Assembly (NCBI RefSeq): GCF_024204685.1
Contig: NZ_CP100350.1
Coordinates: forward strand, 3,560,501 to 3,624,500
Direction of reading: 5' to 3'
Source of the DNA: Gilvimarinus sp. DA14
Lineage (GTDB): Bacteria; Pseudomonadota; Gammaproteobacteria; Pseudomonadales; Cellvibrionaceae
DNA length: 64,000 bases
Shown here: in pieces, positions 1,944 to 48,053 of the stretch
How the letters are laid out: every line of letters begins with the position of its first letter
Numbering within the stretch: position 1 is the first letter of the stretch
Translations under genes and position numbers: made by a program
Notes under the pieces: model-generated
What the model was told of the DNA's origin: nothing
The model's input: the letters and a program-made list of their open reading frames with translations, nothing else
The model's database searches: none

Positions 1944-1968
1944 CGGCGACTTAGGTCGCCGTTTTTTT
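1944..1968 (+). terminator. Rho-independent terminator of the RND pump gene
   Basis: A perfect 7 bp stem (CGGCGAC, loop TTAG, GTCGCCG) is followed by seven T. It lies 13 bases after the stop codon of the efflux gene. The loop and right arm lie over the stop codon and last codons of the convergent histidine kinase gene, so the terminator is built into the end of that coding sequence. No T-run follows in the other direction. Confidence 0.88.
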
Positions 1969-4900: not shown

Positions 4901-6330
4901 AATTCTTCGAGACTATAGCCAATAATCTCGGCCCAGCGGTCGTTAAAACGGACTCTACCAGTGGGAATGTCCCAGTCCCAGATGCCGACCCCTGTGCTGT
5001 CAATGATCAATTCCAGCCTTTGTCGTTGCTCGGCCAGGCGGCGGGCTTGGGCCTGGGCTGTACTGATATCCTCGACGATCGACCACACCAGCTTTTCACC
5101 GGAGTTATCTTTCACCAATACACTGCTCAGCTGCACAGGGAGGGGCTCATCGTTACATTTAACAAATTCCAATTGCACCGGTCCGCAGCGACCCTCTTGG
5201 GCAAGCTGGGTGCGAAGATCCATTAAAGTGTGGTGATCCGAAGCGGTTAATACTTTTTTCACCGTTAGTTTGCGCAACTCGTCTAATTGATAATTGCCGT
5301 AGGCCAGCAGGGCTGGATTGGCGTCGAGAAATTTGCCGCTGTTGAAGTCGTGTAGGCAGATACCGATAGGAGAGCCGTGAAACAGGGTATGCAGTCTTTG
5401 TTCTGCGCCACGGCGAGATTCCAGCAGATAGATCACCCACAGCAAAGGCGCCAGAATAAGAATTGCAACCAAGCACATAGCCAGACGCAAAGGCGTCGCG
5501 TTGGGGGCTCGTTGGGGCCAGCCTTGCGCCGGAATAGCGGCCAGCTGCCACTCGCCGCCGGGAATGTCGACTGTGGCGGTGACCGGGTCTTGTGAGCTGA
5601 TCGCCTGATCCCCCCAAAAAGGTAGAAGTGAGTCGCTGTGACGGATGCTCACATTTAAATTTGCTAGCTGATTTAGGCCGCTGGCGGCGTAGAAAGCTTG
5701 GGCGTCGAGCACGGCCGAGACTAACCCCCATAATTGCTGGTCATCGGTGTAAACCGGTATGCGCCCAATGATGCCTTGGCCGCCCTGTACTAATTCCAGC
5801 GGGCCTGCGACGGTCATATGACCAGACACAATAGCCTCTTGCACTGCAGCTTTTTGCGAGGGGTGGGTTAGATAATTCAGCCCCAGGGCCGTTTTGTTGT
5901 TCTCGTAGGGGTAAACCAATGAGAGCACAAAATCTGGTGCCGCACCTATATTGCGCAGCAGGCTGTTACCGCCAAATAAATGTTGGGCGTAGTGGCTAAA
6001 GGTTGCCTGGTCCATGTCGGGATTGACCTGGATGGCGGCTACCAGTCCCTGCACCGTTTGCAGGCTGGCGGTGATATTGCCTTCGAGGCGGGTGCGCAAT
6101 ATAGCCACTTCGTCCAGGGTTTCGCCGCGCACCTGGTGCAGGTGGCCCTGATAGTTAAGCCGGTCGATGTAATAACCACTGGCGAATGCGGTTACCCCTA
6201 CCACTAAGGAGATAATGAAATAACCGATGCGAGAGAGAGAAAACGCCTGAGGCAGAGAGGAGTTGGATGAAGTACGGAGCATAAAACCTGCGCGCTTTTG
6301 TATGGCGGTGAATTTGTTTTTTTGACTCAT
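1951..6330 (-). CDS. Membrane hybrid sensor histidine kinase (CHASE, four PAS, HisKA, HATPase, two REC, HPT)
   Basis: A 1459-residue multistep phosphorelay kinase. TM1 is near residues 35-55, a CHASE-like periplasmic sensor spans about 60-270, and TM2 is near 280-302. Four PAS-type modules follow (about 310-425, 440-560, 570-690, 695-815; the last is weakest). HisKA carries the H-box SHEIRTPMNGVLGM near 845, and the ATPase domain carries NLVGNAIKFTEQG, DTGVGI and YGGSGLGLAI. The first receiver-like domain is degenerate: it has HTPSQ where the acidic pair should be and lacks the conserved lysine. The second receiver is intact (LLLVEDNPVNQEV, FMDCQMPEMDGFEA, LSKPI). The C-terminal HPT domain has HSLKGSAGQL. 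The gene stands alone, with no adjacent response regulator, so it probably passes phosphate from its HPT to an unlinked one. The ligand is unknown. Confidence 0.93.
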   Translation of the reverse strand: MSQKNKFTAIQKRAGFMLRTSSNSSLPQAFSLSRIGYFIISLVVGVTAFASGYYIDRLNYQGHLHQVRGETLDEVAILRTRLEGNITASLQTVQGLVAAIQVNPDMDQATFSHYAQHLFGGNSLLRNIGAAPDFVLSLVYPYENNKTALGLNYLTHPSQKAAVQEAIVSGHMTVAGPLELVQGGQGIIGRIPVYTDDQQLWGLVSAVLDAQAFYAASGLNQLANLNVSIRHSDSLLPFWGDQAISSQDPVTATVDIPGGEWQLAAIPAQGWPQRAPNATPLRLAMCLVAILILAPLLWVIYLLESRRGAEQRLHTLFHGSPIGICLHDFNSGKFLDANPALLAYGNYQLDELRKLTVKKVLTASDHHTLMDLRTQLAQEGRCGPVQLEFVKCNDEPLPVQLSSVLVKDNSGEKLVWSIVEDISTAQAQARRLAEQRQRLELIIDSTGVGIWDWDIPTGRVRFNDRWAEIIGYSLEELAPIDINTWLDHAHPEDLPYSEKKLQEHWDGRSEKYICECRMRHKNGQWVWVIDTGEVVEWNSDGTPRRMVGTHLDITEHKQALHKIQLSQRELNQYFDNANSFLCITTAEGVFERVNNHFTHALGYSARDLLAVPVFEFLHPDDSAPTLNALKKLQQGSTISSVKARFRHKEGHFVTLLWSAKIDDETGKIYASAVDITEQEASARKLNRQSRLLNAMSELGKIGAWEVDLEKGRIYWSQMTKKIHEVAEDFTPDLATGINFYKEGEHRQKITSLVEQAIENGTQFQDELILITANNTEKWISTAGKAVMENGKCVRLYGSFQDIHERKLAEFALQAAKTEAEVAARSKSEFLAMMSHEIRTPMNGVLGMLNLLKKAQLPDRDLHKLHIAKTSAESLLAIINDILDFSKVEAGKLELDEAEFELHQFLDGFTHTMAMRAQDKGLELILDKSELNHASVSGDCGRLQQIFTNLVGNAIKFTEQGSIVIRCHSHLAAGRVHFSADIQDTGVGIPGDKIEQLFDPFSQLDASTTRRYGGSGLGLAICRKLTQLMRGKISAQSSAGEGSCFSFSVELKPAQASLFKAPDFSDGPPKILIHTPSQLLSESLHRLLTRWGIEAKCTHDLAQLTELQEPSFDLVFIDSRSGSHELAQARKWREEKNTHYLISIIGLSESFTQGSYDQYLYHPPGTLALLKLLNQVKPHNGYIHAESINTLSKSNESLLTWPKNTRLLLVEDNPVNQEVAQLILHELGLSADIAGNGKEALIALKNSPSHNPYTLVFMDCQMPEMDGFEATGRIRNKEAGESNSKIPIIALTANAMQGDKEKCLQAGMDDYLSKPIDAASMLSTLQYWLLAEDEKQPQATDREPNEDLIWDREQALKSLFNKQDFLDKLLVQFTKTGREKSQILATALNNKDAQLITLQAHSLKGSAGQLKAFKLHKHAEQVEHAAQRQQWTLLESAIPELQATLEETITAFQQSKKTAT

Positions 6331-23379: not shown

Positions 23380-26300
23380 ATGTACCGGATATTCTCACTG
23401 GCATTAGTGTGCCTGTTTTGCCTTGCGGGTTGCGGCGGTGGAGGCGGTGGTGGTTCATCGCAAACACCCAATCCTCCCGTACAATCCTCCAGTAGTTCCA
23501 GCTCCGACGGCTTTGAAGAGCCAGACCCCATAGACATCCCAGACGAACCCGCCGACGCCGATGACGACGGTATAGCGGATGATTCAGATAACTGCGTTAA
23601 CACCGCTAACCCCAACCAGCTTGATAGCGACGGTGACGGTGTGGGCGATGCCTGCGATACAAGCCCGGTGACTGACGGTGATGGCGATGGTGTGGACGAT
23701 AGCGTGGATAATTGTCCGCTCATTGCGAATAGCAACCAGCAGGATACCGACAACGACAATATAGGCGATGCCTGCGATCAGGATGATGACGGCGATAATA
23801 TCAGTGATGGCGAAGACAATTGCCCGCTGCTGGTCAATCCGAACCAGCAGGACAGTGATGGCGATCGGATTGGCGATGCCTGCGATGGCGACAGCGATGG
23901 CGATGGTGTACAAAACGACAACGACAATTGCCCCCTAATTGCCAATACCGCGCAGTCAGACCTGGACAGCGATGGGCTGGGCGATTTGTGCGATACCGAT
24001 ATTGATGGCGATGCGCTGGATAATGGCGCTGACAATTGCCCTCGCGACCTTAATGAAGATCAAGCCGATACGGATGCCGATGGCATCGGAGATAGCTGTG
24101 ATCTCAATGCCGACTCAGATGGCGATGGTATTGACGATGGCATTGATAACTGCGCCTTAGATTTCAACCCACAGCAGCTGGATCAGGATAATGATTGGAT
24201 TGGTAATGTTTGTGATCTTGACGTCGACAATGACGGCGTAGCCGACTCTGGTGATAACTGTCCTTTAACCGCGAATACCTTGCAGCTCGACGATGACAGC
24301 GACGGTTTGGGTAACAGTTGCGACAGTGACGATGACGGCGACGGCGTAAACGATGCGGTGGATAACTGCCCGGTCGATGTCAATGCCGATCAGCTCGACT
24401 CCGACAGCGATGGTGTTGGCGATGTCTGCGATTTAGACCGCGATAATGACGGTTTGCCTAATCCCATCGACAATTGCCCAGCCAATGCCAACGCGGCACA
24501 AAACGACCTGGACGGAGATGGCATTGGCGATGCCTGCGATGATGACCGTGATGGCGACGAGATTGTCGACGAAGCCGACAACTGCCCCGCCGTTGCCAAC
24601 CCAGGGCAAGTGGACAGTGACGGCGACGGTATAGGCGACGCCTGCGATAGCAGTAACGATCCGGTGGATCCTGTCGACAGTGATGGCGATGGTATAGCGG
24701 ATGATGACGACAACTGTCCGTTAATTTCCAATGCCGGTCAGAGCGATGCCGACGGCGATGGCGCTGGCGATGTTTGTGACAATGACCGCGATGGTGACGG
24801 CATTGATAATACCGGTGATAACTGTCCCTCGGTTGCCAATCCAGATCAGTTGGACACCGATGGTGATGGCCTGGGAGATGCCTGCGACGAGGGCTCTGCT
24901 ACCGATAGCGACGCCGACGGGATTGTCGACAGCGCCGATAACTGCCCCCTGGTTGCCAACGCCGGGCAGCAGGACAGCGATGCCGACGGCACCGGTGACG
25001 CCTGTGATACGGACGTGGATGGCGACGGTGTTGCCAATGATCAGGACAACTGCCCAACAACCCCCAACGCCAGTCAGCTCGATACTGATAGTGATGGGGT
25101 GGGTGATGCCTGTGACGGCAGCGACGATAGCGACACAGACAATGATGGCATTCAGGATGATGCCGACAATTGTCCGCTGATTGCCAATGCTGACCAAGCC
25201 GACATGGATCTGGATGGTGTCGGTGATGTGTGCGACAACGATCGTGACGACGACGGTGTTAATAACGGCGCCGATAACTGTCCCGACCAGGCTAACGCCA
25301 ACCAAAATGATCTGGACGGCGATGGTATAGGCGACTCTTGTGATGCCGATGTGGACGGCGACACCATTAGCAATGGCAGCGACAATTGCCCCAGAACCGG
25401 TAACACTAATCAAAGTGATTGGGATGCCGATGGTGTCGGCGATGCCTGTGACGACGACCTGGACGGCGATGGTGTGGCCAATGGTGCCGATAACTGCCCA
25501 GCCATGCCCAATGCGGATCAGGTGGATACCGATGCCGATGGGGTAGGGGACGCGTGCGATAGCAACACCGACAGCGACGGTGACGGTATCGACGATGGCT
25601 CAGACAACTGCCCGGCCACGGCCAATGCGGATCAGCTGGACTTTGACGGCGATACTGTCGGTGATGTGTGTGACGACGATCGTGACGGTGATGGCGTTAA
25701 CAACGATGATGACAACTGCCCCGACACCGCCAACGGCGACCAGGCCGATGCCGACGGCGACGGTATTGGCGATGCCTGCGACAGCTTTACCGACAGCGAT
25801 AGCGATGGCATAGCCGATGCGGCAGACAACTGCCCGCTTACAGCCAATGCCGATCAGGCGGATGCCGATAGCGATGGTATAGGTGACGTATGCGACGGCG
25901 ACAGAGATAACGATGGCATTGCGAACAGCGGTGATAACTGTCCTCTGGTCAGTAATCCCGACCAGTCCGATATGGACGCAGACGGTATGGGTGATGCGTG
26001 CGATGACGACCAGGACGGTGACGGCACCGACGATGACGCAGATAACTGTCCGCTGATCGCTAACCCGAGCCAGCTTGATAGCGATGGCGACGGCATTGGC
26101 GATGCCTGTGACAATGATCTGGACGACGATGGTGTGGACAATGGTGCCGATAATTGTCCCTCTACCCCTAATCCCGATCAGGCCGATATCGATGGCGATG
26201 GCGTAGGCGATGTGTGCGATGCCACAGAAGATGTAGCCTGCGCTCCGGGCAAACTCTACGAGCCGCTAATCGACCCCAATATCACAGTGCATACCGATGT

Positions 26301-26742
26301 AAGCAGCATACTGTGCGTGGGATGTGGGGTGTTGAACGCTGGCAACATTGAAGACAGCGACCTCAACAACTTTGCCACGGTTGCCACCCCAGTGGCGGTA
26401 GCCGGCACAGTGAGTCTGGCGGCGGAGGATACTGCCACCAGCTATGCAGGCAGTCATCGGGTCGGGGTAGTGGTCTCGTCTGCCAACGATCTCTTGGAGC
26501 TGGATTTGTTGGACAACATTACCCTAACCACATACCTCGATGGTGTGGCGCAGGAGTCTGGTGGCGCTACGGGGTTACTGGGTTTGCAGCTGTTAGGGTT
26601 ATTTAATAACCCGGATCAGTACTTGGTAATGATGCCCACCAGCGCGGAGTTTGACCGGGTAGAAATATCTAAAGCCGCTGTACTGGGGCTGCTGAGCGAC
26701 CTTCGCGTACACACCATGTGCGTTGCTCCGGCAGCACAGTAG
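23380..26742 (+). CDS. Lipoprotein with 24 thrombospondin type 3 calcium-binding repeats
   Basis: An 1120-residue surface lipoprotein. The signal ends [11 protein letters not shown], followed by a poly-Ser linker (about 35-47). From about residue 55 to 950 lie 24 TSP3 units, each of the form DxDGDGxxDxxDNCPxxxNxxQxDxDxDGxGDxCD; I counted 24 DNC cores. Each unit has two cysteines and many Asp, and should bind calcium and form a rigid rod, as in thrombospondin and OmpA-linked TSP3 proteins. A C-terminal domain of about 165 residues has two cysteine pairs and segments such as [22 protein letters not shown]. It resembles carbohydrate-binding or adhesion modules in surface proteins, but I cannot name it. 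A role in adhesion or as a calcium-dependent stalk is inferred. Antisense open frames arise from the Asp-rich codon pattern. Confidence 0.93.
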
Positions 26743-28234: not shown

Positions 28235-28522
28235 TTACTTGCGGGTACTTTTGCCGTTAACCTTTAGCGTTTTTTGTTTGCTTTCGGTGTCGCTTTGCTC
28301 GTGCCAGCTAAAGCGTAAATTAACGCGGTTGTAGGCGTCTTCGCGCTGGGCGGTAACTTTTACTTGCATCAATCCCTGGGGGCAGAGCGTCAGGGTTTCT
28401 TTACCCTCACTAAAAGACAGTTCGCCCGCGTCTATGCCATCCATAAGCGCCTGCAACAAGTTGCGGATGGATTGCGAGTCCTGCAGCGATTCGTGGCGAA
28501 AGCTGTTTTTCTCTCGGCTCAT
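28235..28522 (-). CDS. Amphi-Trp domain protein of a GAK-type operon
   Basis: A 95-residue basic protein matching the amphi-Trp domain (NCBIfam name). It starts KNSFRHESLQDSQSIRNLL, then has ALMDGIDAGELSF, and ends LRFSWHEQ with the conserved Trp. The domain recurs beside HprK-related kinases and an ATP-grasp enzyme in the 'GAK system' and may be its small carrier or substrate. Here it is the last gene of a six-gene minus-strand operon, 13 bp after the metallophosphoesterase gene. AAAGGAAC precedes the ATG. Its role is unknown. Confidence 0.88.
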   Translation of the reverse strand: MSREKNSFRHESLQDSQSIRNLLQALMDGIDAGELSFSEGKETLTLCPQGLMQVKVTAQREDAYNRVNLRFSWHEQSDTESKQKTLKVNGKSTRK

Positions 28523-28535
28523 GGTTGTTCCTTTG

Positions 28536-29876
28536 TTATTTTGCCTGCGGCTGAAATAATTTAATTGCGGGCCAATCGCTACTGATTCCGGCGACGAAGC
28601 CCTTGGGGTCGATAATCGTGGCGCCCGCTCCCAGCCCTTTAAGAGACTCTTTTTTGCGTGAGTGCTTATCCAGGGTGATATCGCACTCTATGTGCAGCAA
28701 CTCGCGGCGCAGTGCCAGGCGTTGGCCCCGGTGTAAATTGCGGTGGCCGTGCACAATGGCGTGAATGCCGGCACTGTGAGTCCGCCGAGCACCGTGTTTG
28801 CTTAGCGGGTGATCCACAGCGCGGTATTTGGTGCGAATGCTGTTGGCCAGCGAGCCGTAGTAAAAATCAAAGGGCGAGCCTTTTAATTGTTTGGCAAACT
28901 CTTTGTTTAATGGTGTGAGACCGCGAGTGCTAATTTCGTTGGCAAGGTTGTCATCCAGGCCCGCGTGTACAAATAAAAAACTGCCGCGCTTGAGAGCTAG
29001 CCTCAGTTTTTTATAAAACCAGTAAAACTCCCCACTTTTAGATAAAAACAGCTTTTGCCATAAAAGGGCGCTGGCGTATACCTCGCGCAGGGTCAACCCA
29101 GCCTTGTGGCATTGGTCTTCAAATTCTGCGGATTTTTTTGCAATCTTGGCCAGTTCTCGTTCGCAGGCGGCGGGCGATAATTGGCTTTTAGCGGCCTCTT
29201 GGAAGCCGGCAAACCAGGTGTTTTGTGGCAAGAGTAATTGGCGGCATTGCTTGGTGTCTGGTACATCTGCCAGCGCATTTTTTCCGCTTAAGTATTCGTT
29301 GCGAATTTCTTTTAGCAGCGGAATAGCTTTGGCTCCCATGCGTACAAAAAAATGCCCGTTTTTAACATCGGCGGCGCAGCCTGCTGTACGCATGCCGAAC
29401 AGTACTCTAACGTCGTGATTGCCCGCCAAGAGTTTTACCCGCGCCTTCTGATCGATCAGGTTTTTTAACACCCGCAACAGGCGCAGGTTGCTGGGGCCTT
29501 TATCAAAAAAATCGCCCCCGAAAACAAAAACAGATTTTTTCCCCTGTTTGCTCAACTTGAATTTATTGTCGCCTTTACCTGTGCGTATCACCCCGCCGCT
29601 GGCAACCAGTGAGGCGAGCAGAGCGTCGGCATCGGCGTGCAGATCCGAGATAAAAATGATCCGCCGCTTGGGCCACACCCAGGGGTATTGTGATACCTGT
29701 TGGTCAATGGCGTGGCGCGCGCGGCGGCGCCCGCGCTTGCGCTGGCGAAAAGCGTGTTTGCCCTCATCCAGCCAGGGGCGCACATGATCCGGCAGGGTCA
29801 TAGGCAGCCATTTTTCCCCCTCGTAATGGGTAAGCTGGCTGATGGCTTTGCTGTTAAGCGACGATTCGGCATTCAT
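28536..29876 (-). CDS. Calcineurin-like metallophosphoesterase, GAK-type operon
   Basis: A 446-residue protein of the PPP-like metallophosphatase fold. All metal-binding motifs are seen: FISDLHADADA, VFGGDFFDKGP, LLAGNHDVRV, FVHAGLDD and IVHGHRN. A large helical insert (about residues 150-250) between GNHD and HAG is unusual in length. It is predicted to remove phosphate from protein or a small molecule made by the operon's kinases. The ATG at 29876 lies 2 bases after the stop of the SixA-like gene, so translation is coupled. The frame continues to 29918, but those extra codons lie inside the upstream gene. Confidence 0.9.
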   Translation of the reverse strand: MNAESSLNSKAISQLTHYEGEKWLPMTLPDHVRPWLDEGKHAFRQRKRGRRRARHAIDQQVSQYPWVWPKRRIIFISDLHADADALLASLVASGGVIRTGKGDNKFKLSKQGKKSVFVFGGDFFDKGPSNLRLLRVLKNLIDQKARVKLLAGNHDVRVLFGMRTAGCAADVKNGHFFVRMGAKAIPLLKEIRNEYLSGKNALADVPDTKQCRQLLLPQNTWFAGFQEAAKSQLSPAACERELAKIAKKSAEFEDQCHKAGLTLREVYASALLWQKLFLSKSGEFYWFYKKLRLALKRGSFLFVHAGLDDNLANEISTRGLTPLNKEFAKQLKGSPFDFYYGSLANSIRTKYRAVDHPLSKHGARRTHSAGIHAIVHGHRNLHRGQRLALRRELLHIECDITLDKHSRKKESLKGLGAGATIIDPKGFVAGISSDWPAIKLFQPQAK

Positions 29877-29878
29877 GC

Positions 29879-30553
29879 TCAGTCGGTGAACTCCCGTGGT
29901 GAGGTGCGCGGTTTCCACTGCCCCGCTAGATGAACCCAGCCGGCCTCAGTACAAGCGATAATAACTGGTTGGGCATGATGCATACTCAGGTTGGCAACGT
30001 CAGATTCACTCAGTATACCCAGATTACTGGCGCCGTGGCGCAATGCAGCGCCGTGGCCGACAATCACCGTAAGAGAATTGTCCGCGCTTTCGTCGGCGAG
30101 CTGGCTGATATAACTTGCAACCCGCTCGCCGGCCTGCTGCAGAGATTCGGCCCCGGGCAGTGGCAGGCAGTAGTCGCTGCGCGATTTCCAGTTCTCCGGT
30201 GGGCTGGGGTAGCGTGGGTCTTGTTCCAGCAGCTGTTCTATCTCATCGATGGTGAGATTCGCCGCGCTGCCTACGCAGCGCTCGGTTAACGCATCGCTTT
30301 GCAGCAATTGCCCCTCGTCTACTGCCAACTCGCGGCGAATAATCTCGGCAGTTTGCCAGGCGCGAAGTAACGTTGAGCTGTGCATAACCGACGATAAACC
30401 CAGCTCTAAATCGGACGCTGCCTTTTGCAGTAACAGTGCACAGTCGCGCGCTTGCTGTTCACCTTTTGCCGTGAGCGGGTAGGGCTGATGGGCGCTGGGG
30501 GTGTCTTTTTTCTGCCGGTAGTCCCCATGGCGTATCAAGGCAAAAGCGCGCAT
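29879..30553 (-). CDS. SixA-like histidine phosphatase, GAK-type operon
   Basis: A 224-residue histidine phosphatase superfamily member. The catalytic signature LIRHGDYR is near residue 7, the second His lies in SLTVIVGHGAALRHG, and ALLLQKAASDLELGLSSVMH resembles SixA/phosphohistidine phosphatases. SixA removes phosphate from histidine residues; here the substrate is unknown. I chose the ATG at 30553, which gives the canonical N-terminus MRAFALIRHGD and shares one base with the stop of the kinase gene (TAATG). Confidence 0.92.
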   Translation of the reverse strand: MRAFALIRHGDYRQKKDTPSAHQPYPLTAKGEQQARDCALLLQKAASDLELGLSSVMHSSTLLRAWQTAEIIRRELAVDEGQLLQSDALTERCVGSAANLTIDEIEQLLEQDPRYPSPPENWKSRSDYCLPLPGAESLQQAGERVASYISQLADESADNSLTVIVGHGAALRHGASNLGILSESDVANLSMHHAQPVIIACTEAGWVHLAGQWKPRTSPREFTD

Positions 30554-31689
30554 TAATCCTGTGCCTCTGGTAATTGCCACAGCTGCCAGCAAAAATCCCG
30601 CAGCGCGCTAAAATCTACCCCGCCGCTAACGGCATAGACTTGGGTGTGGCTTAGCTGCTGCAGATAGGCTTGAAGCGCAGGCATTTGTGCATTGGGCTGG
30701 AACTGGCCATCGCTACGCTGGTAAAAGGGGCCAGAGGATTTCATCAATGCGGGGAGTAATTCCTGGCGCTCGTTTATATCAATTTTGTCAATGCGAGTGG
30801 CGCATTGCTCGCGGCGGTTCCAGTTCAACAACACAATGGCTTTTAGCGGCGCGGTATTCTCAATACGGGTGTTTTCACCTCTGCCGTAGAGTTTGGGAAT
30901 CAGCACGTCGTATTTTTCCTCCAGCTCCCACAGCTCGTCCGGAGCCATGGTCTGGTAGCGCCGCTTTTGCTCGGCCGTTAATAACGGTTGCAGGCGCGGG
31001 TTGTTGAGCAGGGTGCCCGGGTTAACCCGTGGCATTTTGGCCGCGCCGCAAAGCAACAGCTGCTCACCGACTTGCTTGGTAAATATCCGATCGTTGCTCA
31101 CAAAGTTAACTTTCGGGTGATCCAGAAGCCGCAGCATACTGGTGGATTTTCCGCCGCCCGAAAACCCGGCAATAGCGATTGCCTGCTGGTTGTAACTTGC
31201 CGCGGCGGCGTGGCCAATTAACCAGCCATTTTGTTGCAGCTGGTTCATGGCTTGGTTGTTGATAAAATTAATAACCTGATTCAGGTTGTCATTACAGGGG
31301 CCTATCGCGATACGCTGGTTTCTGCTTTGCAGAAATACCATGCCGGTGCGACATTTGCGCAGAAGACGCGCATCATCCAGATCGATAAACGTATCTTTGC
31401 GCGCGCTTTTGCCCGGTTCCCGCTGCCATTCTTGCCAGGGTAAATACTCCGCAACAGTGGGTGATTCAATTACGGTAACTGTGGCGTCACAATTTTTCTC
31501 GCCAGACATAAGCCAGGGCTGGAAGTAGGCTTTAAGGCTGCTGGCTGTTTGTGCCTGCGTGCAATTGACCTGCACTGAAGCGCCAGGTAGTGCCAGGCTC
31601 AGGGAGTACTCCGTTTTTTCCGGATGGCGCTGCAACCAGTGTAAAAAGTTGTGTATTTCCGTTTCGGTATTTGCCTTGGCTTCAGCCAT
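30553..31689 (-). CDS. HprK-related kinase B, GAK-type operon
   Basis: A 378-residue protein with the HPr-kinase-like P-loop AIAGFSGGGKSTSMLRLLD near residue 175 and the following FVSNDRIF. These fit NCBIfam 'HprK-related kinase B'. True HprK phosphorylates Ser46 of HPr; these relatives lack the rest of that system and their target is unknown. An N-terminal region (about 1-160) is specific to the family. The ATG at 31689 lies in an 8 bp overlap with the ATP-grasp gene (ATGGCTGA), and its stop overlaps the SixA-like start. Confidence 0.9.
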   Translation of the reverse strand: MAEAKANTETEIHNFLHWLQRHPEKTEYSLSLALPGASVQVNCTQAQTASSLKAYFQPWLMSGEKNCDATVTVIESPTVAEYLPWQEWQREPGKSARKDTFIDLDDARLLRKCRTGMVFLQSRNQRIAIGPCNDNLNQVINFINNQAMNQLQQNGWLIGHAAAASYNQQAIAIAGFSGGGKSTSMLRLLDHPKVNFVSNDRIFTKQVGEQLLLCGAAKMPRVNPGTLLNNPRLQPLLTAEQKRRYQTMAPDELWELEEKYDVLIPKLYGRGENTRIENTAPLKAIVLLNWNRREQCATRIDKIDINERQELLPALMKSSGPFYQRSDGQFQPNAQMPALQAYLQQLSHTQVYAVSGGVDFSALRDFCWQLWQLPEAQD

Positions 31690-32575
31690 TGAGCTTCTCC
31701 AGAACGTAATCCGCGTAAAGTGCAGCGGCATCGATACCTATACCATCTTTGGCGCCGCGAAAACCGCCGAACGCCGATACTTCAAAAACTATGGGGCCAT
31801 TGTCTGTTTCAGCCACATCTACGGTGGTAAAGTCCATCGCGAATGGCGCTTGAGCACGGGTCGCGAGGTCAATCAATTCGGGTTCAGGTTCGGCTTTGGC
31901 GTATTTTCCGCCGCTGTGAATAGTCGTGTTCCAGCTATCTCCCGCTCCCAGTCGGGCATAGCTGCCAAGATACTGACCGCCCAGAAATACCATACCTAAA
32001 TCGCGCCCGCTCAAATTCAGCTTTTGTTGGATATACATGCACGGGTGAGTGCTGGAAAAACGCTCCACGGCGGATTTCTTATCCGCATCCTCGGCCCTGA
32101 TAATTTCCATACCGCGCGCTTTGGTGGAATAGAGAGGTTTAAATACGGCGGCGCCAAATTTATCCACGGTGTGCAGTGCCTGATCTACCGATTCGGTGAT
32201 CACTGTGGCCGGCATGGGAATATCGTGGTTGCGCAGTGTTACCGTACAGCTCAAACGGTCAATCAGGCGCAGTATGCTTTGCGCCTGACTAAAAACCGGC
32301 ACGCCCTGGGCCTCGGCTACCCGCAGAAGCTCCAGTCGGTCGAGAGTATTGGGGCTGTACTCGGCACTGATTTTCTTGACGATAATCCCATCAAATTCAC
32401 ACAGGTTGTGCTCGCGGTAATAGAGACTTTTGTTTTGTAAATCCAGTACCACCTCGCGCATGTCGACCACCAGACGAAAGCCGGTGCGCGCTTGCAAGGC
32501 ATCGGCCAATACTTCGGTGGACCATTTGCCGGGCAGGCCTACCACAGCTATTTTTCCCTTGGTCGAATCAGTCAC
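31682..32575 (-). CDS. GAK system ATP-grasp enzyme (RimK-like)
   Basis: A 297-residue ATP-grasp protein. Visible ATP-grasp features are AVFKPLYSTKARGMEII (ATP-binding lysine), GRDLGMVFLGGQ, FAMDFTTVDVAETDNGP and the metal-site residues in VFEVSAFGGFRG. RimK-like enzymes join amino acids to a protein or peptide; NCBIfam names this subgroup 'GAK system ATP-grasp enzyme', with no known reaction. It begins 8 bp inside the end of the PhoU/APH-like gene and ends 8 bp inside the HprK-related gene, so the three are coupled. Confidence 0.9.
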   Translation of the reverse strand: MTDSTKGKIAVVGLPGKWSTEVLADALQARTGFRLVVDMREVVLDLQNKSLYYREHNLCEFDGIIVKKISAEYSPNTLDRLELLRVAEAQGVPVFSQAQSILRLIDRLSCTVTLRNHDIPMPATVITESVDQALHTVDKFGAAVFKPLYSTKARGMEIIRAEDADKKSAVERFSSTHPCMYIQQKLNLSGRDLGMVFLGGQYLGSYARLGAGDSWNTTIHSGGKYAKAEPEPELIDLATRAQAPFAMDFTTVDVAETDNGPIVFEVSAFGGFRGAKDGIGIDAAALYADYVLEKLNG

Positions 32576-34199
32576 AAAAAAGCTCCGTTAATGGCACGTG
32601 GTAATCGGTCAGCTTGTGGCGTGGCAGCTGGTTGACTTGCTCCAGCAGGTAGCGCGCTTTTAAATACATGCGTGTGGCCATGGTGTGGTCGAGAATAAAG
32701 CGGGTCGAGGTGACGAACGAGCGTGCCAGCCCAAGCGCCAGCCGTACCTCGAAGGTGTCATCATTGTGTTTGCGGGCAAAGGTCTGAACAATGCTGTAAA
32801 ACTGCTCAACTTGCTGGCGTATGCGCCGGCGTACTGGTTCGTCCAGCACTTGCAAACGATAGTTCGAAACCATAAACACCGAAACGTCTTGCACGTAATC
32901 CATGTGGCAAGAGCGGTGAAGATCAATAAAGTTAATTTTGTTTTCAACCGGGTCGTAAATAATATTGTCGACGTTAAAGTCGCCGTGAATAAACACACTA
33001 AAAGGTGCGCCGAGTTTTTCTTCTTTCTTCTGCACCTTCTTTACCAGGGCGTCAAAGCTCTCTATTTTGTAGCTGCCGAGACTCTGGCGCTCATGTTGAA
33101 AGTCCGGGTGCACGCTGTACACATCCGGCAGGCGCTTAAGAGTTTGAGCCATAAAGTTAGCCGGGTTGGGCTGGTCGGTATAAGTCTGTTGCCAAATGCT
33201 GTTGAGTGTTTTTTTCAGACTGGTCATGGCCTTTTTACGGCGCTTTTGTGGCGATTTTATGACCAGCTGTTCGAAGGTTTCTCCGTTTAAATGTTCAATC
33301 AGTAAGGCGGCATTGTCGCCTTGCTTTTGGTAGGTATGAATGTGCGGTGCAACCCCCGGATAAATATCGTGCCAGCGATTTACCCCCTCCAGCTCTTCTT
33401 TAAGCTTGCGTTTGCTGCCGTCTTTGTACACCAGTCTCTGCCACTGCTCATCGGTGGGATTGTCGATGGTGCTGATACCACTGCCAGAGCGGGTTTCGGC
33501 AAGGGGGGTAACTCGCAGTTGCGCGGCCAGATCTTCCTCGAGCCAGTTATTGATGGTGCTGCGCAGAGAGCTGTAGCGCTGTAAGTCCAGTGGCTGGCCC
33601 ATATGCCCCGAGATAATGGAATCGCTAATGTTTAACAGGGCGTCGCCCATCTGCTCAATGGCGTGGGCAATAAACAATCCGCTGACTAAATCCTCGGTGT
33701 GCTTTTTCTTTTTCAGCTGGCGGGTGTACTGGCTGACCAGCTTTTTATAAGACTTCTCCAGTTTGCGCTCGGTCTTTCCCAGCTTTAAGGCCAGTTGCGT
33801 GTCACGATCTTTTAACGCCCGGGATATCAAATCGATACTTTTGTCGACTTTTTGCAATAGTGGCAGGTACACACTTAAGTCCAGTCGTGCGCCGCTGTGC
33901 AGAAAATTCATCTGTTGCAGGCATTCGCGTGCAAGCTCGGCGATGCGCTCCAGCTCGCTGGCAATGCGGCTCACAGCCCGGTAACTCATAGAGTGCTGGT
34001 TGCTTTGCAGCGCGACATGCTTCATGCAGGCATTTTGCACCCGCAGGTTAAGGTTGTAGGCGTGACCACTGCGCTCCAGTAAACGGTGGGCATGGGCTAC
34101 CTTGCCCTGGGCGAAAAAGTTCTGCAGGTGCGCCAGGTGCGTTTTTACCTCGGCGATCAGAAAATGCAGATTGTCGGTGATGGCCGGGGTTAACACCAT
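32568..34199 (-). CDS. PhoU-like/aminoglycoside-phosphotransferase-like kinase fusion, first gene of GAK-type operon
   Basis: A 543-residue protein with two parts. Residues about 1-210 are helical and PhoU-like (two three-helix bundles; SMSYRAVSRIASELERIAEL, LFIAHAIEQMGDALLNISDS). Residues about 230-520 form a phosphotransferase (APH) fold with the catalytic loop FIHGDFNVDNIIYDP and the metal aspartate in INFIDLHRS. PhoU domains bind metals and sense phosphate signalling; APH folds phosphorylate small molecules or proteins. The fusion suggests a sensor-regulated kinase. It is the first gene of the operon and is divergent from recQ. The substrate is unknown. Confidence 0.85.
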   Translation of the reverse strand: MVLTPAITDNLHFLIAEVKTHLAHLQNFFAQGKVAHAHRLLERSGHAYNLNLRVQNACMKHVALQSNQHSMSYRAVSRIASELERIAELARECLQQMNFLHSGARLDLSVYLPLLQKVDKSIDLISRALKDRDTQLALKLGKTERKLEKSYKKLVSQYTRQLKKKKHTEDLVSGLFIAHAIEQMGDALLNISDSIISGHMGQPLDLQRYSSLRSTINNWLEEDLAAQLRVTPLAETRSGSGISTIDNPTDEQWQRLVYKDGSKRKLKEELEGVNRWHDIYPGVAPHIHTYQKQGDNAALLIEHLNGETFEQLVIKSPQKRRKKAMTSLKKTLNSIWQQTYTDQPNPANFMAQTLKRLPDVYSVHPDFQHERQSLGSYKIESFDALVKKVQKKEEKLGAPFSVFIHGDFNVDNIIYDPVENKINFIDLHRSCHMDYVQDVSVFMVSNYRLQVLDEPVRRRIRQQVEQFYSIVQTFARKHNDDTFEVRLALGLARSFVTSTRFILDHTMATRMYLKARYLLEQVNQLPRHKLTDYHVPLTELFCD

Positions 34200-34410
34200 G
34201 CCGGGCTCCGGTTGTCCGTCTTTGTTGCTGAGCGGCTATATTACGGCCCGCCTTGTGGGATTGAAAGGCGAAGCGCCTCTTGTCATATAAATGTCATCCC
34301 CCAGCTTGCGCGCAGAAATGCCACATCTGTACAAGAAATAGCCGTTTGCGAGGGCGAGGTTGTTAGGCTAACTTACCCTTCAGGATGCGCAAACTGATAA
34401 ACTCTCACGG

Positions 34411-37526: not shown

Positions 37527-38300
37527 TTAGCTCGCCGCAACGCCAATTGTCAGAGTCGCTGTATACCCCTCATTAATGGTGCCTTGGATAGTCACTCTTT
37601 GACTCTCAATTCCATCGGCAAAAATGCCATCTTCAACGTATGAGCGCACCGAAGTGTTTTGTCCTTTATCACGATAGAGGTCAGAATTATAAACGGTTTG
37701 GACTACGTCATCGGGAAACGCCAGCTGAGAGGTGGCGGTAGCGACTGAGACCGTATCATTGTAGAGAAATACTTGAAAGTGGATGTGCGTTAGTCGCCCG
37801 GCATACCAACCGGGAAAAATGGTGTGGAATGTGACTTCGCCGTTTTGATTTACATCTTGCACGCCCCGGCAGAAGGTTTCGCCGATGGTGTTGGCGCCCG
37901 GCTGAGAATAGCCGGAGTAAAGACCGTCTTTGTCGCAATGCCAGACATAAATAGACGCATAGGGAAAAGCTTCGCATCCGTTGTTGATGTCCACCAAATT
38001 AAATTTTAACGTGAGCGGAATGCCTGGTTTGTCTTCGTGAATAGTGCCGCGAACATAGGCCGAGTTGCTGAGAATGACTGATAGCGGATACGGGCCTTCA
38101 GTTTCCTGTGGAATCAGTATACAGCTGCCTTCCCCTGTACTTATGCTGGATGAGCTGCTTGTAGTTGTAGCGCCATTACCATTGTTGCTAGAGCCACATC
38201 CGGCCAGTCCCGCACCAGCCAGGCTTGCACCTAACCCCCGTAGCAGATTGCGACGGCTGGTTTGTGTAAGGTTTAAATCGGTTTTCGGTTTTTCAAGCAT
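37527..38300 (-). CDS. Tat-exported lipoprotein intradiol ring-cleavage dioxygenase
   Basis: A 257-residue protein of the catechol/protocatechuate 3,4-dioxygenase fold. The iron-ligand residues are plausible: Tyr in GLYSGY and PGWYAGR, and His in LTHIHFQV. The N-terminus is unusual: a twin-arginine motif SRRNLLRGLG, then a hydrophobic stretch ending LAGC, and an Asn/Ser linker. This indicates a Tat-exported lipoprotein, so ring cleavage would occur outside the cytoplasm. Homologous extracytoplasmic dioxygenases occur in lignin-associated bacteria. The natural substrate is unknown. It stands alone and is divergent from nothing; 26-27 bases separate it from dsbB, which converges. Confidence 0.9.
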   Translation of the reverse strand: MLEKPKTDLNLTQTSRRNLLRGLGASLAGAGLAGCGSSNNGNGATTTSSSSSISTGEGSCILIPQETEGPYPLSVILSNSAYVRGTIHEDKPGIPLTLKFNLVDINNGCEAFPYASIYVWHCDKDGLYSGYSQPGANTIGETFCRGVQDVNQNGEVTFHTIFPGWYAGRLTHIHFQVFLYNDTVSVATATSQLAFPDDVVQTVYNSDLYRDKGQNTSVRSYVEDGIFADGIESQRVTIQGTINEGYTATLTIGVAAS

Positions 38301-44603: not shown

Positions 44604-47600
44604 ATGGCGGAACGCAAAGGCTTGGATCGGGTTTCTACCCGGCAGTTGTGGTGGGCTCTTTCACTGGCTAGTGTGTTCTTTTGTGCCATTACAGTCTTAA
44701 CCTATCAGCTTGGAGCTCGAGATATCCGTAACGCGTTGCAGCGGGAAATGGACATCTACCAAGCGGAAAGTCGTTCGCAACTGATCGAGCTTTTATCTTT
44801 GCCTGCTCAGCATTTAACCGGAATGGCTCGGGAGCCGATGGTGCAAACAGCGCTTGAAGCTCGCGATGAATCCATTAAGCGCCATAATTTCTCCCTGGCG
44901 ATGTACTCGCTTGTTTATCGCAACCCTAGGTATTTTCAGGTGCGCTGGATTTTACCTGACGGGCGTGAGCAGATAAAAATTATTGCTGACACGCTCGGAA
45001 TACGCGAATTAAGCCCCGATGTTTTACAAAATAAGTCTACCCGCCCTTATCATCAAAAAGTTTTAGAGTTAAATCCCTACGAGACCTATGTATCTCAGCC
45101 CGATTTAAATGTTGAAAATGGGCTTTTGGAACGTCCATTAAGACCTGTTGTACGTTACGCGATTCGTCTGCCGTCTATCCACGGTGTTGATCATGGATAT
45201 CTTATTTTCAACTTGCTGTTTAATATCCATGACGGCTTGCTGCCGCTGTCTCGAGACTATGTGAACTTGTCTCTTGCCGACCATCAGGGCAATTGGTTGA
45301 TGCAAGCCGATAGCGCAAAAACCTGGGGCCATTTGCTTGGCAATAACCACTCCGTTAAAACTGATGAGCCTGAGCTGTGGGCCGCTATGCAAGCTGGAGA
45401 TAGCGACATTTCGAGTAAGTCTGGGATGTGGGCCTGGAGTCAAGTTGCCCCCTCTCTTGATAACTCTCCGAATGTAGCCGGTTTGAGTTTTCAGCCGGTG
45501 TACTTGTTAACATCTATACCCCGCGCTGTAATCTCACAGCGAATGCAAGCGGCTGCGATACGGTCGGCCGCTGTGCTCTTGCCTTTTTTGGGGCTGTTGA
45601 TTATCGGCATTTGGTATTACTACAAATTGCTTCGCAGCGCCTCACAGCTGCGGTATGCACAGTGGCAACAATCCCAAGATTTACTGCGTCGCAATGAGTT
45701 TATTCTCACCTTGACAGAGTCCCTGCCTAATATGGTGAGTTATTGGACCTCTGACAGACGGTGCGTTTATGCCAATAAAAGCTTTCGTGAATATTTGCAG
45801 CTGGCGCCTGGCACCGATCAAGATATCTCTTTGCATAGGCTGATCAATTACAACGAACAGTCCTATTTTGATCAATGCGTAGCCGGTGAAGAGCTCGGCT
45901 TTCAAAAGAAGGAAGTTCGCAATTCAGGCGAATCTCATCTGCAAATTTATTTAATCCCAAATTGGGAAAATAGTGAAGGTGGGGGCCGAAAAGTGGCAGG
46001 CGTTATTGCCATTGCAACGGATTTGACCCAAATCCTACAGGCTAAAGCTCAGGTTGAAATCCTTAATGAGCAGCTCAAACTGCGCACGAAACAGGCCGAG
46101 GCTGCTGCGGAGGCAAAAAGTAGTTTTCTCGCCAATATGAGCCATGAAATTCGTACCCCCATGAATGGCATTACCGGGCTTATCGAAATTCTTAAACAGA
46201 CACCTTTGGATGACAAACAGCGCGACTACGTGGGTAAACTGAGCCAGGCGTCTACGTCCCTGTTGGCAATATTGAACGACATACTTGACGTTTCCAAACT
46301 GGAAGCGGGCAAGGTGAGTATTGTAACCGAGCCCTACCACCCTGAAAGTTTGGTTTCTGATGTGGTCAACTTGTTTGAAGTTAACCTGGCTAAAAAAGGT
46401 GTGGCGTTACACACCTGGATTGACCCGCTTTTGCCATCGACCTTGCAGGGTGATCAGCACCGGTTGCGGCAGGTGTTAAATAATTTGCTGAGTAATGCGA
46501 ATAAATTTACCGAGCAGGGACAAATATTGTTGTCAGTCACCCGAGAGTTTAGTGCCGAGGGGACGGAGCAGGTTCGTTATTCAGTCAAAGACAGTGGCGT
46601 TGGGATTAAACCTGAGAAGCTCGAAACAATATTCGGTAAGTTTAATCAAGCGGACGAGTCGACCGAGCGTCAGTACGGCGGTACAGGATTAGGACTCTCT
46701 ATTTGCGAAAAGCTTGTGACGCTTATGGGCGGTAACATCGGTGTTTTGAGTACGGTGGGCAAGGGCAGTGAGTTTTATTTTAACGTGCCAATGCAGGTGG
46801 ATTCCCACGAGCGGCCAAGCTTTGGTGGTTTGGTTGGAAAAAGAGCGCTGTTAGTGGATGACAGCGACACCTCTAATGAAATTATGCAAAGTTATCTGAC
46901 CGCCTGGGGTATGCAGTCAGATTGCGTTAGCTCTGTCGAGGAAGCGGTAACGAGCTACCAGCGTTCTTTAGGCGGCGAGGGCTACGACCTGGTTATTGTC
47001 GACTGGAAATTGGGTGAAGAAGATGGCGTGGAGCTACTAAAAAGTTTGCAAGCGCTTACACCGAATCATGAGCTGGCCAGCCAGATTATGATGGTAACTG
47101 CCTACAACAAAGAAAAGCTGATGGACCAGCTGAAGCGAGAAAAAAAGCAAGAGACTCCGATTCTTACAAAACCGGTATTGCCATCCACTTTATACAACGC
47201 CATCGCGGATAAGCCCATGCGTTTACGTTCTAGCCGGCCCAGCGTTGGTACTCTTCCGGCGGTTAGCGAAAGTGTGCGACAGCTCATACGCGAGAAAAAA
47301 ATTCTGCTGGTAGAGGACAATCTGTTAAATCAGGAGGTTGCTCTTACCCTTTTGGGCTACGCAGGTTTACACGCAGACGTGGCTTCATCGGGTGTTGAGG
47401 CTCTCAACAAAATTCAGGCGTGTCGGTACGATGTGATCCTGCTTGATTTACACATGCCTGAAATGGATGGTTTTGAAACATGTCGTCGTTTAAGAAAAGT
47501 ACCAGGCTATGGCAATACCTTGGTGGTCGCACTCACAGCCGCGGTTCTGAATGAGGACGTTGAGCAGGCTCTGGCGGCTGGTATGGATGACCATCTGGGT

Positions 47601-48053
47601 AAACCCTTCGATGTCGAGCAGCTATTGAGGCTGCTGGGGCGATGGTTTGAGACAGAGCCAGAATCAGAAATCACACCGTCTGCCGCAGAAACGGCGCAAC
47701 CCGTGCCAGATGCTCTGGCGCCACTGTTTAAAGCAATGGGCGTCAATCCGCAAGAAATGCTACGGCGTTTTCGCGGCAATGAGAGCATGATTTTACAGCT
47801 GCTGCGCAATTTCTCTCAGCGGCATCAAGACTGGCCTGCAATGTTGCGTCAGACTACAGAGACGGAAGCCCTGGCGGCACTGGTTCATACCATTAAGGGC
47901 ACGACTGGCACCATGGGGTTGATGGAAGTCTATCGCCATGCCGAGCAAATAGAAGAAGACTTTCGCGAAGGACGCAGCGTTAACCTGGAACCTTTAGCCC
48001 ACGATTTAGAAGTGTTAATCGGTGCGGTATTAGCCGATGCGCAAGCACAATGA
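44604..48053 (+). CDS. Membrane hybrid sensor histidine kinase (PAS, HisKA, HATPase, two REC, HPT)
   Basis: An 1149-residue multistep kinase. TM1 is near residues 15-35, a periplasmic sensor of the double-Cache-like type spans about 40-320, and TM2 is near 328-348. A PAS-like module (365-475) and coiled coil lead to HisKA with SHEIRTPMNGITG (His near 515). The ATPase domain has NLLSNANKFTEQG and YGGTGLGLSI. Both receivers appear intact: ALLVDDSDTSN with VIVDWKLGEEDG, and LLVEDNLLNQEV with LLDLHMPEMDGF. The HPT domain has HTIKGTTGTMGLM. It lies 13 bp after pbpG, which hints that it might sense envelope state. No partner regulator is adjacent. Confidence 0.93.
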   Translation: MAERKGLDRVSTRQLWWALSLASVFFCAITVLTYQLGARDIRNALQREMDIYQAESRSQLIELLSLPAQHLTGMAREPMVQTALEARDESIKRHNFSLAMYSLVYRNPRYFQVRWILPDGREQIKIIADTLGIRELSPDVLQNKSTRPYHQKVLELNPYETYVSQPDLNVENGLLERPLRPVVRYAIRLPSIHGVDHGYLIFNLLFNIHDGLLPLSRDYVNLSLADHQGNWLMQADSAKTWGHLLGNNHSVKTDEPELWAAMQAGDSDISSKSGMWAWSQVAPSLDNSPNVAGLSFQPVYLLTSIPRAVISQRMQAAAIRSAAVLLPFLGLLIIGIWYYYKLLRSASQLRYAQWQQSQDLLRRNEFILTLTESLPNMVSYWTSDRRCVYANKSFREYLQLAPGTDQDISLHRLINYNEQSYFDQCVAGEELGFQKKEVRNSGESHLQIYLIPNWENSEGGGRKVAGVIAIATDLTQILQAKAQVEILNEQLKLRTKQAEAAAEAKSSFLANMSHEIRTPMNGITGLIEILKQTPLDDKQRDYVGKLSQASTSLLAILNDILDVSKLEAGKVSIVTEPYHPESLVSDVVNLFEVNLAKKGVALHTWIDPLLPSTLQGDQHRLRQVLNNLLSNANKFTEQGQILLSVTREFSAEGTEQVRYSVKDSGVGIKPEKLETIFGKFNQADESTERQYGGTGLGLSICEKLVTLMGGNIGVLSTVGKGSEFYFNVPMQVDSHERPSFGGLVGKRALLVDDSDTSNEIMQSYLTAWGMQSDCVSSVEEAVTSYQRSLGGEGYDLVIVDWKLGEEDGVELLKSLQALTPNHELASQIMMVTAYNKEKLMDQLKREKKQETPILTKPVLPSTLYNAIADKPMRLRSSRPSVGTLPAVSESVRQLIREKKILLVEDNLLNQEVALTLLGYAGLHADVASSGVEALNKIQACRYDVILLDLHMPEMDGFETCRRLRKVPGYGNTLVVALTAAVLNEDVEQALAAGMDDHLGKPFDVEQLLRLLGRWFETEPESEITPSAAETAQPVPDALAPLFKAMGVNPQEMLRRFRGNESMILQLLRNFSQRHQDWPAMLRQTTETEALAALVHTIKGTTGTMGLMEVYRHAEQIEEDFREGRSVNLEPLAHDLEVLIGAVLADAQAQ

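Follow-up and report, generated by a model that had tools for sequence, protein, structure and literature searches.

The DNA analysed here, the window, is a 64,000-nucleotide stretch of the genome of Gilvimarinus sp. DA14 (contig NZ_CP100350.1, positions 3,560,501 to 3,624,500), and our subject is the minus-strand operon of six genes at its positions 28235-34199, which belongs to what NCBIfam terms the “GAK system”. The six genes are one co-inherited system, and we favour, with roughly even confidence, the reading that they form a phosphate-responsive (Pho-linked) writer/eraser module in phosphate homeostasis. This placement is based on a fusion of a PhoU domain to a kinase, on Pho-box-like sites in a subset of relatives and in the window, and on phosphate- or polyphosphate-type genes that recur in the neighbourhood. 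The GAK families were previously named in NCBIfam; the phosphate link is new here and gives the operon a first testable direction. Three ATP-using enzymes and at least two phosphatase-type enzymes are kept together in Pseudomonadota, in Planctomycetota and on plasmids, with only database names as far as we found. An earlier sequence-only reading of this DNA had held that neither substrate nor physiology is published, and indeed no paper on the function of the GAK system was found in the open-access literature under the names tried, subscription papers and preprints being outside the search.

Layout and co-inheritance of the operon

All six open reading frames were confirmed at the positions collected in Table 1. 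With the probable starts, picked by eye against relatives, the junctions from the first gene onward are an 8 bp overlap, an 8 bp overlap, a 1 bp overlap, a 2 bp gap and a 13 bp gap, just as the sequence-only reading had described six genes with gaps of at most 13 bp. Its assignment to the GAK type also held, with three families above their curated NCBIfam cut-offs in one operon, namely grasp_GAK (TIGR04356, 461 bits for a cut-off of 300), HprK_rel_B (TIGR04355, 338 for 200) and amphi-Trp (TIGR04354, 60.5 for 31). The other three proteins belong to general families only (PhoU plus APH; histidine phosphatase branch 1; calcineurin-like phosphatase), the last of them carrying a PPP/ApaH-like motif set. 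NCBIfam and Pfam thereby uphold the family calls made earlier for the PhoU/APH fusion (PhoU-APH), the ATP-grasp enzyme, the HprK-related kinase B (HprK-B), the metallophosphoesterase and the amphi-Trp protein; the label “SixA-like” given to the histidine phosphatase had to be dropped, as the sixA model reaches 26.4 bits against a cut-off of 74.5 and is outscored by other branch-1 models. Set beside the NCBIfam GAK system (TIGR04354, TIGR04355, TIGR04356, TIGR04357), the operon agrees in its ATP-grasp enzyme, HprK-B and amphi-Trp protein and differs in two respects: CofD_rel_GAK, which we treat as an optional member, has no match in this genome at E<=0.001, and PhoU-APH and the two phosphatases are constant partners that stand outside the GAK names.

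Table 1. The six genes of the operon and the Pho-box-like repeat beside it (positions in the window)
Feature	Position	Strand	Support
PhoU-domain/APH-like kinase fusion, first gene of the operon, 543 aa	32568..34199	-	Pfam PhoU 54 bits, APH 41 bits
GAK system ATP-grasp enzyme, 297 aa	31682..32575	-	TIGR04356 461 bits
HprK-related kinase B; probable true start 31689	30553..31731	-	TIGR04355 338 bits
Branch-1 histidine phosphatase; probable true start 30553	29879..30592	-	Pfam His_Phos_1 88.8 bits
PPP-type (ApaH-like) metallophosphatase; probable true start 29876	28536..29918	-	Pfam Metallophos 43 bits
amphi-Trp protein, 95 aa, no catalytic motif seen	28235..28522	-	TIGR04354 60.5 bits
Pho-box-like direct repeat TTGTCATATAAATGTCAT	34280..34297	+	In the 211-bp gap between operon and recQ

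Related loci were gathered from the best 80 of 490 ATP-grasp relatives found in a scan of a genome collection and from 15 survey stretches, with 5 duplicates dropped; 89 loci held an ATP-grasp gene, and exclusion of 38 with short flanks left 51 with complete flanks. Since several loci come from close relatives (three from Onishia taeanensis, many from Roseibium), the neighbourhood counts are not independent. All six genes are present in 48 of the 51, and the gene order of the window is kept in 44, which confirms the grouping as a real operon. At the level of whole genomes of the class, HprK_rel_B lies above its cut-off in 12/369 genomes, all of which are among the 14/369 that match grasp_GAK at E<=1e-60 (13 above cut-off). 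CofD_rel_GAK was found at E<=1e-60 in 7 genomes of the class, 6 of them grasp_GAK genomes, and amphi-Trp in 33, that is in 13 of the 14 grasp_GAK genomes and in 20 of the 355 others. PhoU-APH occurs in 12/321 genomes; 11 of these also match grasp_GAK, and the remaining one, G252, has CofD_rel_GAK and a SixA-NUDIX fusion. A comparison of this kind had been proposed by the sequence-only reading as the way to refute it, and the neighbours do co-occur, both in the loci and in the PhoU-APH genomes. That the six stand together by chance, each with a housekeeping or drug-modifying role of its own, the APH half serving for example as an aminoglycoside kinase, would suit the fact that all but three named families are general, but it is contradicted by conserved order and co-occurrence, and we give it next to no credence. 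The drug-modifying role was rejected for the APH half on its own account as well, the resistance models scoring well under their cut-offs (at best 42 bits, with 205 required).

Most of the best 80 of the 490 ATP-grasp relatives belong to Gamma- and Alphaproteobacteria, and the name or source of many points to a marine origin; Mariprofundus and the planctomycetes Rhodopirellula and Stieleria are also represented. Within Gilvimarinus, the GAK ATP-grasp gene exceeds its cut-off in 3 of 8 genomes. The gene is also present on five Rhodobacterales plasmids; in the three that we inspected the annotation shows all six gene kinds on each, and the plasmid of Tritonibacter mobilis has the six with no NUDIX or CofD-like gene beside them. 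The system is plasmid-borne in some lineages. Two loci of the sample deserve a separate word. A GAK locus in a record labelled Halobacteria archaeon (L085) looks gammaproteobacterial by gene order and 68% identity, and is perhaps a mis-binned contig. In L118 (12934-14076) a gene of the exonuclease/endonuclease/phosphatase family is inserted divergently within a split GAK operon, and its cluster recurs in four loci.

Evidence for a phosphate link

The Pho regulon consensus consists of two TGTCAY half-sites 11 bp apart, and two half-sites of this kind are found upstream of the operon in the window (weighted score 12.7). The repeat TTGTCATATAAATGTCAT at 34280-34297 is one of several conserved islands across three Gilvimarinus species; in Gilvimarinus agarilyticus recQ does not adjoin the operon. 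Throughout the 3.96-Mb genome the pattern TGTCAYNNNNNTGTCAY has 8 matches, one of them the 17-bp core of the window's repeat, against 1 for a reversed-pattern control. Two of the other matches are immediately upstream of a PhoD gene and of a phosphate-binding-protein-like gene (Pfam PBP_like_2) that is PstS-like by our own reading, and both point towards these genes. Sites scoring at least 12 occur in 10 of 68 related operon leaders, the window not being counted among them, as against 7 of 536 other leaders (Fisher p 1.8e-6), while dinucleotide shuffles of the operon leaders gave a mean of 0.23 sites and a maximum of 2 in 200 shuffles. For this comparison gaps before CofD-like genes were excluded from both groups and background sites identical to the site of an operon were removed; without the removal of shared background sites the counts become 14/110 and 9/544. 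In the background set of seven, three sites lie ahead of CYTH-, PhoB-like- and CHAD-cluster genes, and another lies ahead of a metallophosphatase gene inside a GAK operon.

Part of the company that the operon keeps in relatives points in a similar direction. Among the 51 complete-flank loci, a NUDIX gene is found in 31, a SixA-NUDIX fusion of about 320 residues in 31 and a CofD-like gene in 26 (one representative scores 539 bits on CofD_rel_GAK). Cluster hidden Markov models, with each neighbour cluster named from one to three representatives, add CHAD in 9 loci, a Na/Pi symporter in 6, PhoB-like genes in 5, PhoR-like genes in 3 and CYTH in 2; ParA-like and CNNM genes are other recurring neighbours. 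CHAD- and ParA-type genes stand on the same strand directly before PhoU-APH in two loci (L112 and L213). Matches to SixA-NUDIX of at least 300 residues were obtained in 6/16 carrier genomes, with the halves on two contigs in a seventh, against 1/29 controls (G252 again), and the NUDIX half finds its best PDB matches in entries of diphosphoinositol polyphosphate phosphohydrolase 1 (DIPP1; E about 1e-6). CHAD domains are described as binding polyphosphate, with stand-alone CHAD often in operons of polyphosphate enzymes (PMC6537752), and polyphosphate-cutting NUDIX hydrolases are reported in two further papers (PMC6522730; PMC11323792).

That said, several observations weigh against a phosphate link. 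The site in the window is oriented towards recQ and away from the operon, and orientation is mixed across loci; Pho boxes that activate usually point towards the gene they regulate, as the PstS-like and PhoD sites do. The remaining five genome matches are found beside genes that have no known role in phosphate handling (for an EAL protein, a sugar transporter, a CitMHS-type transporter and a TonB-dependent receptor) or beside open reading frames that we could not name, and 58 of the 68 related operons have no site scoring at least 12. The scoring weights were chosen with the results of a first scan already at hand and allow TGTAAC-type halves seen in that scan, so that the later counts are somewhat favoured; under the strict consensus the excess is smaller, with 8/80 leaders (window included) against 45/1580 random stretches at no fewer than 11 of 14 matches, and 3/80 against 7/1580 at no fewer than 12. 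The PhoB- and PhoR-like labels come from one representative per cluster. CHAD was present in 11/16 carriers and 13/29 other genomes (one of the 29, G252, has GAK-linked genes), an excess so mild that CHAD is weak as a constant genome-level partner, and it was not found in any of the eight Gilvimarinus genomes searched. With no CofD_rel_GAK here and no match to SixA-NUDIX in this genome at E<=1e-15, the phosphate-type company sits elsewhere. For the family taken as a whole we consider the link good, and for this copy moderate, in view of the recQ-facing site, the site-less operons, the post-hoc weights and the lack of CHAD in Gilvimarinus. Compared with the Pho regulon as generally known, the operon has the PhoU domain and the Pho-box-like sites in common and is unlike it in that PhoU is fused to a kinase and the six-gene core holds no transporter.

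Two further observations belong to the same material. The Pho-box-like site of the TonB-dependent receptor lies upstream of its gene at L220, 1501-1517, in this genome. In another locus (L067, G210:C152) a second copy of HprK-B is found outside the main operon, beside CNNM, NUDIX, histidine-phosphatase, ParA-like and CHAD-cluster genes.

The enzymes and their possible substrate

Catalytic residues, assigned from family knowledge, are invariant throughout our alignments: H405, D407, N412 and D426 of the APH motif in 38 PhoU-APH proteins; the Walker A Lys-Ser, H174 and D214 in 37 HprK-B proteins; D92, H94, D136, N167, H168, H318 and H392 in 34 PPP metallophosphatases; and R21, H22, E104 and H180 in 31 histidine phosphatases. 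Because of this invariance the two kinases and the two phosphatases look active. The predicted model of HprK-B is confident (mean predicted local distance difference test score, pLDDT, 92.9) and reaches Foldseek probability 1.00 to PEPCK and HprK/P entries. HprK-B thus shares with the superfamily of HPr kinase/phosphorylase and PEP carboxykinase its predicted fold, P-loop Walker A and catalytic Asp/His region; unlike HPr kinase/phosphorylase it is larger, has no HPr gene among the six of its operon, and finds its top fold matches in PEPCK.

The ATP-grasp enzyme gives a different picture. By sequence it has the family membership and ATP-grasp architecture of the RimK/MptN/CofF ligases, and it retains D253 and E265, but the Mg-binding Asn of the E-x-N metal motif has become Ser267 (E-x-S) in 81/81 aligned GAK proteins, whereas RimK-type paralogues from the same genus, family and order keep Asn there in 26/26; K17, in a GKWSTE motif, and K152 also differ from the RimK paralogues compared. 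Given the loss of this Asn, glutamate ligation should not be assumed. The same enzyme bears on the proposal that the operon serves to synthesise some unknown cofactor or a peptide-like compound, much as F420 or methanopterin are made, with a CofD-like enzyme and a RimK-family ATP-grasp enzyme building it and phosphatases processing intermediates. MptN is the next best NCBIfam model of the ATP-grasp enzyme, at 147 bits, and the CofD-like gene is common in the complete loci, both of which speak for such a pathway; the lost Asn, the missing CofD_rel_GAK match in this genome, where a CofD step would be dispensable or done otherwise, and the presence of two kinases and several phosphatase-type enzymes, unusual in a linear pathway, make it unlikely. 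The sequence-only reading, which had inferred a reversible modification cycle from the operon, is partly supported: the two kinases and the two phosphatases retain their catalytic motifs, while its amino-acid ligation is weakened by the altered Mg motif. It had missed that alteration, the phosphate link and the SixA-NUDIX, NUDIX, CofD-like and CHAD partners of relatives.

In the phosphate module that we favour, PhoB would switch the operon on under phosphate scarcity, and the PhoU half would sense phosphate status or dock on the Pst/PhoR machinery and so gate the APH-type kinase fused to it. Together with the HprK/PEPCK-type kinase and the ATP-grasp enzyme, this kinase may load phosphate, or build a bond using ATP, on one pool of a compound or protein, from which the histidine phosphatase and the PPP phosphatase would remove phosphate, probably assisted by NUDIX enzymes in many relatives. 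The substrate is the least certain step; the company of NUDIX, PPP, CHAD and CYTH makes us favour a phosphoanhydride compound or a polyphosphate-tied molecule, and the amphi-Trp protein may be a binding or regulatory subunit for it or the carrier itself. A bolder version, which we rate as a rather unlikely speculation, takes the operon as the bacterial equivalent of the circuit by which eukaryotes signal phosphate status, where PhoU-gated kinases would make a pyrophosphorylated non-inositol molecule or polyphosphorylated carrier that reports phosphate, histidine, PPP and NUDIX enzymes would erase it, and amphi-Trp and CHAD would read it. If a soluble messenger does lie behind the operon, it would represent a bacterial phosphate signal beyond the known PhoR-PhoU-Pst route.

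The list of enzyme folds does resemble that of the eukaryotic inositol pyrophosphate and polyphosphate enzymes, namely PPIP5K, the DIPP/Aps1 NUDIX hydrolases and Ppn2, a polyphosphatase of the PPP family, with DIPP1 nearest to the accessory NUDIX half. Taken literally, the resemblance would mean true inositol pyrophosphate metabolism by an ATP-grasp kinase, a histidine phosphatase and a DIPP-type NUDIX enzyme, for which PMC11836120 offers eukaryotic parallels. The inositol synthase domain PF07994 was, however, found in 0/16 carriers at E<=1e-5, with 3/14 control genomes positive, and on this ground we disfavour inositol pyrophosphates proper as very improbable. Moreover, the GAK ATP-grasp enzyme is RimK-like by sequence, and the histidine phosphatase of the operon is of branch 1 while that of PPIP5K is of branch 2 (PMC11836120).

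The amphi-Trp protein and other features of the window

An alternative that we regard as tentative, and well short of even, is a protein-carrier cycle in which amphi-Trp acts as a phosphocarrier in the manner of HPr. One of the GAK kinases, most likely HprK-B, would phosphorylate Ser12 of amphi-Trp just before its helix, and the phosphatases would reset it; the operon would then serve signalling and not metabolite synthesis. Among 58 aligned GAK-linked amphi-Trp proteins Ser12 is found in 58 and His10 in 57, and the motif is missing from the 9 stand-alone amphi-Trp proteins that could be read from 17 loci scanned. The predicted model of the window's protein consists of one helix, four strands and a tail of low confidence (mean pLDDT 84.2, predicted template modelling score 0.63), in which residues 11-20 are confident (mean pLDDT 96). 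The HprK fold of HprK-B would also suit such a cycle, as would the gene order in rearranged complete loci, in 4 of 7 of which HprK is the core gene listed immediately before amphi-Trp. On the other side, the S-x-x-D may simply be a helix cap, and a fold search of amphi-Trp against the PDB gave no match at E<=0.001, nor any HPr entry, among the 49 matches listed. A carrier cycle also leaves the NUDIX, CofD-like and CHAD partners unexplained. Finally, a 99% complete genome, G353, has PhoU-APH, the ATP-grasp enzyme and an amphi-Trp protein with the motif but no match to HprK_rel_B at E<=0.001, so that HprK-B is unlikely to be the sole reason for Ser12, and its candidacy as the necessary writer is weakened. 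The sequence-only reading had named amphi-Trp as the target; a Ser12/His10 motif characteristic of the GAK-linked proteins speaks for this, G353 speaks against HprK-B as the only writer, and amphi-Trp may be the modified carrier. The stand-alone proteins (L182, L184, L185, L188, L193, L194 and others) have frames mostly of 72-103 residues with an N-terminus RDIEK..., and come from genomes without grasp_GAK.

Elsewhere in the window, a 257-residue protein encoded at 37527-38300 (-) starts with a signal-like N-terminus, matches nothing in Pfam at 1e-5, and is intradiol-dioxygenase-like by eye only. The genes at 1951-6330 (-) and 44604-48053 (+) encode hybrid histidine kinases of very large size, which contain response-regulator and Hpt domains. 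The gene at 23380-26742 (+) encodes a protein of 1120 residues with 22 thrombospondin type 3 repeat matches and, by eye, a lipoprotein-like N-terminus, which we take from its family to be a calcium-binding surface protein.

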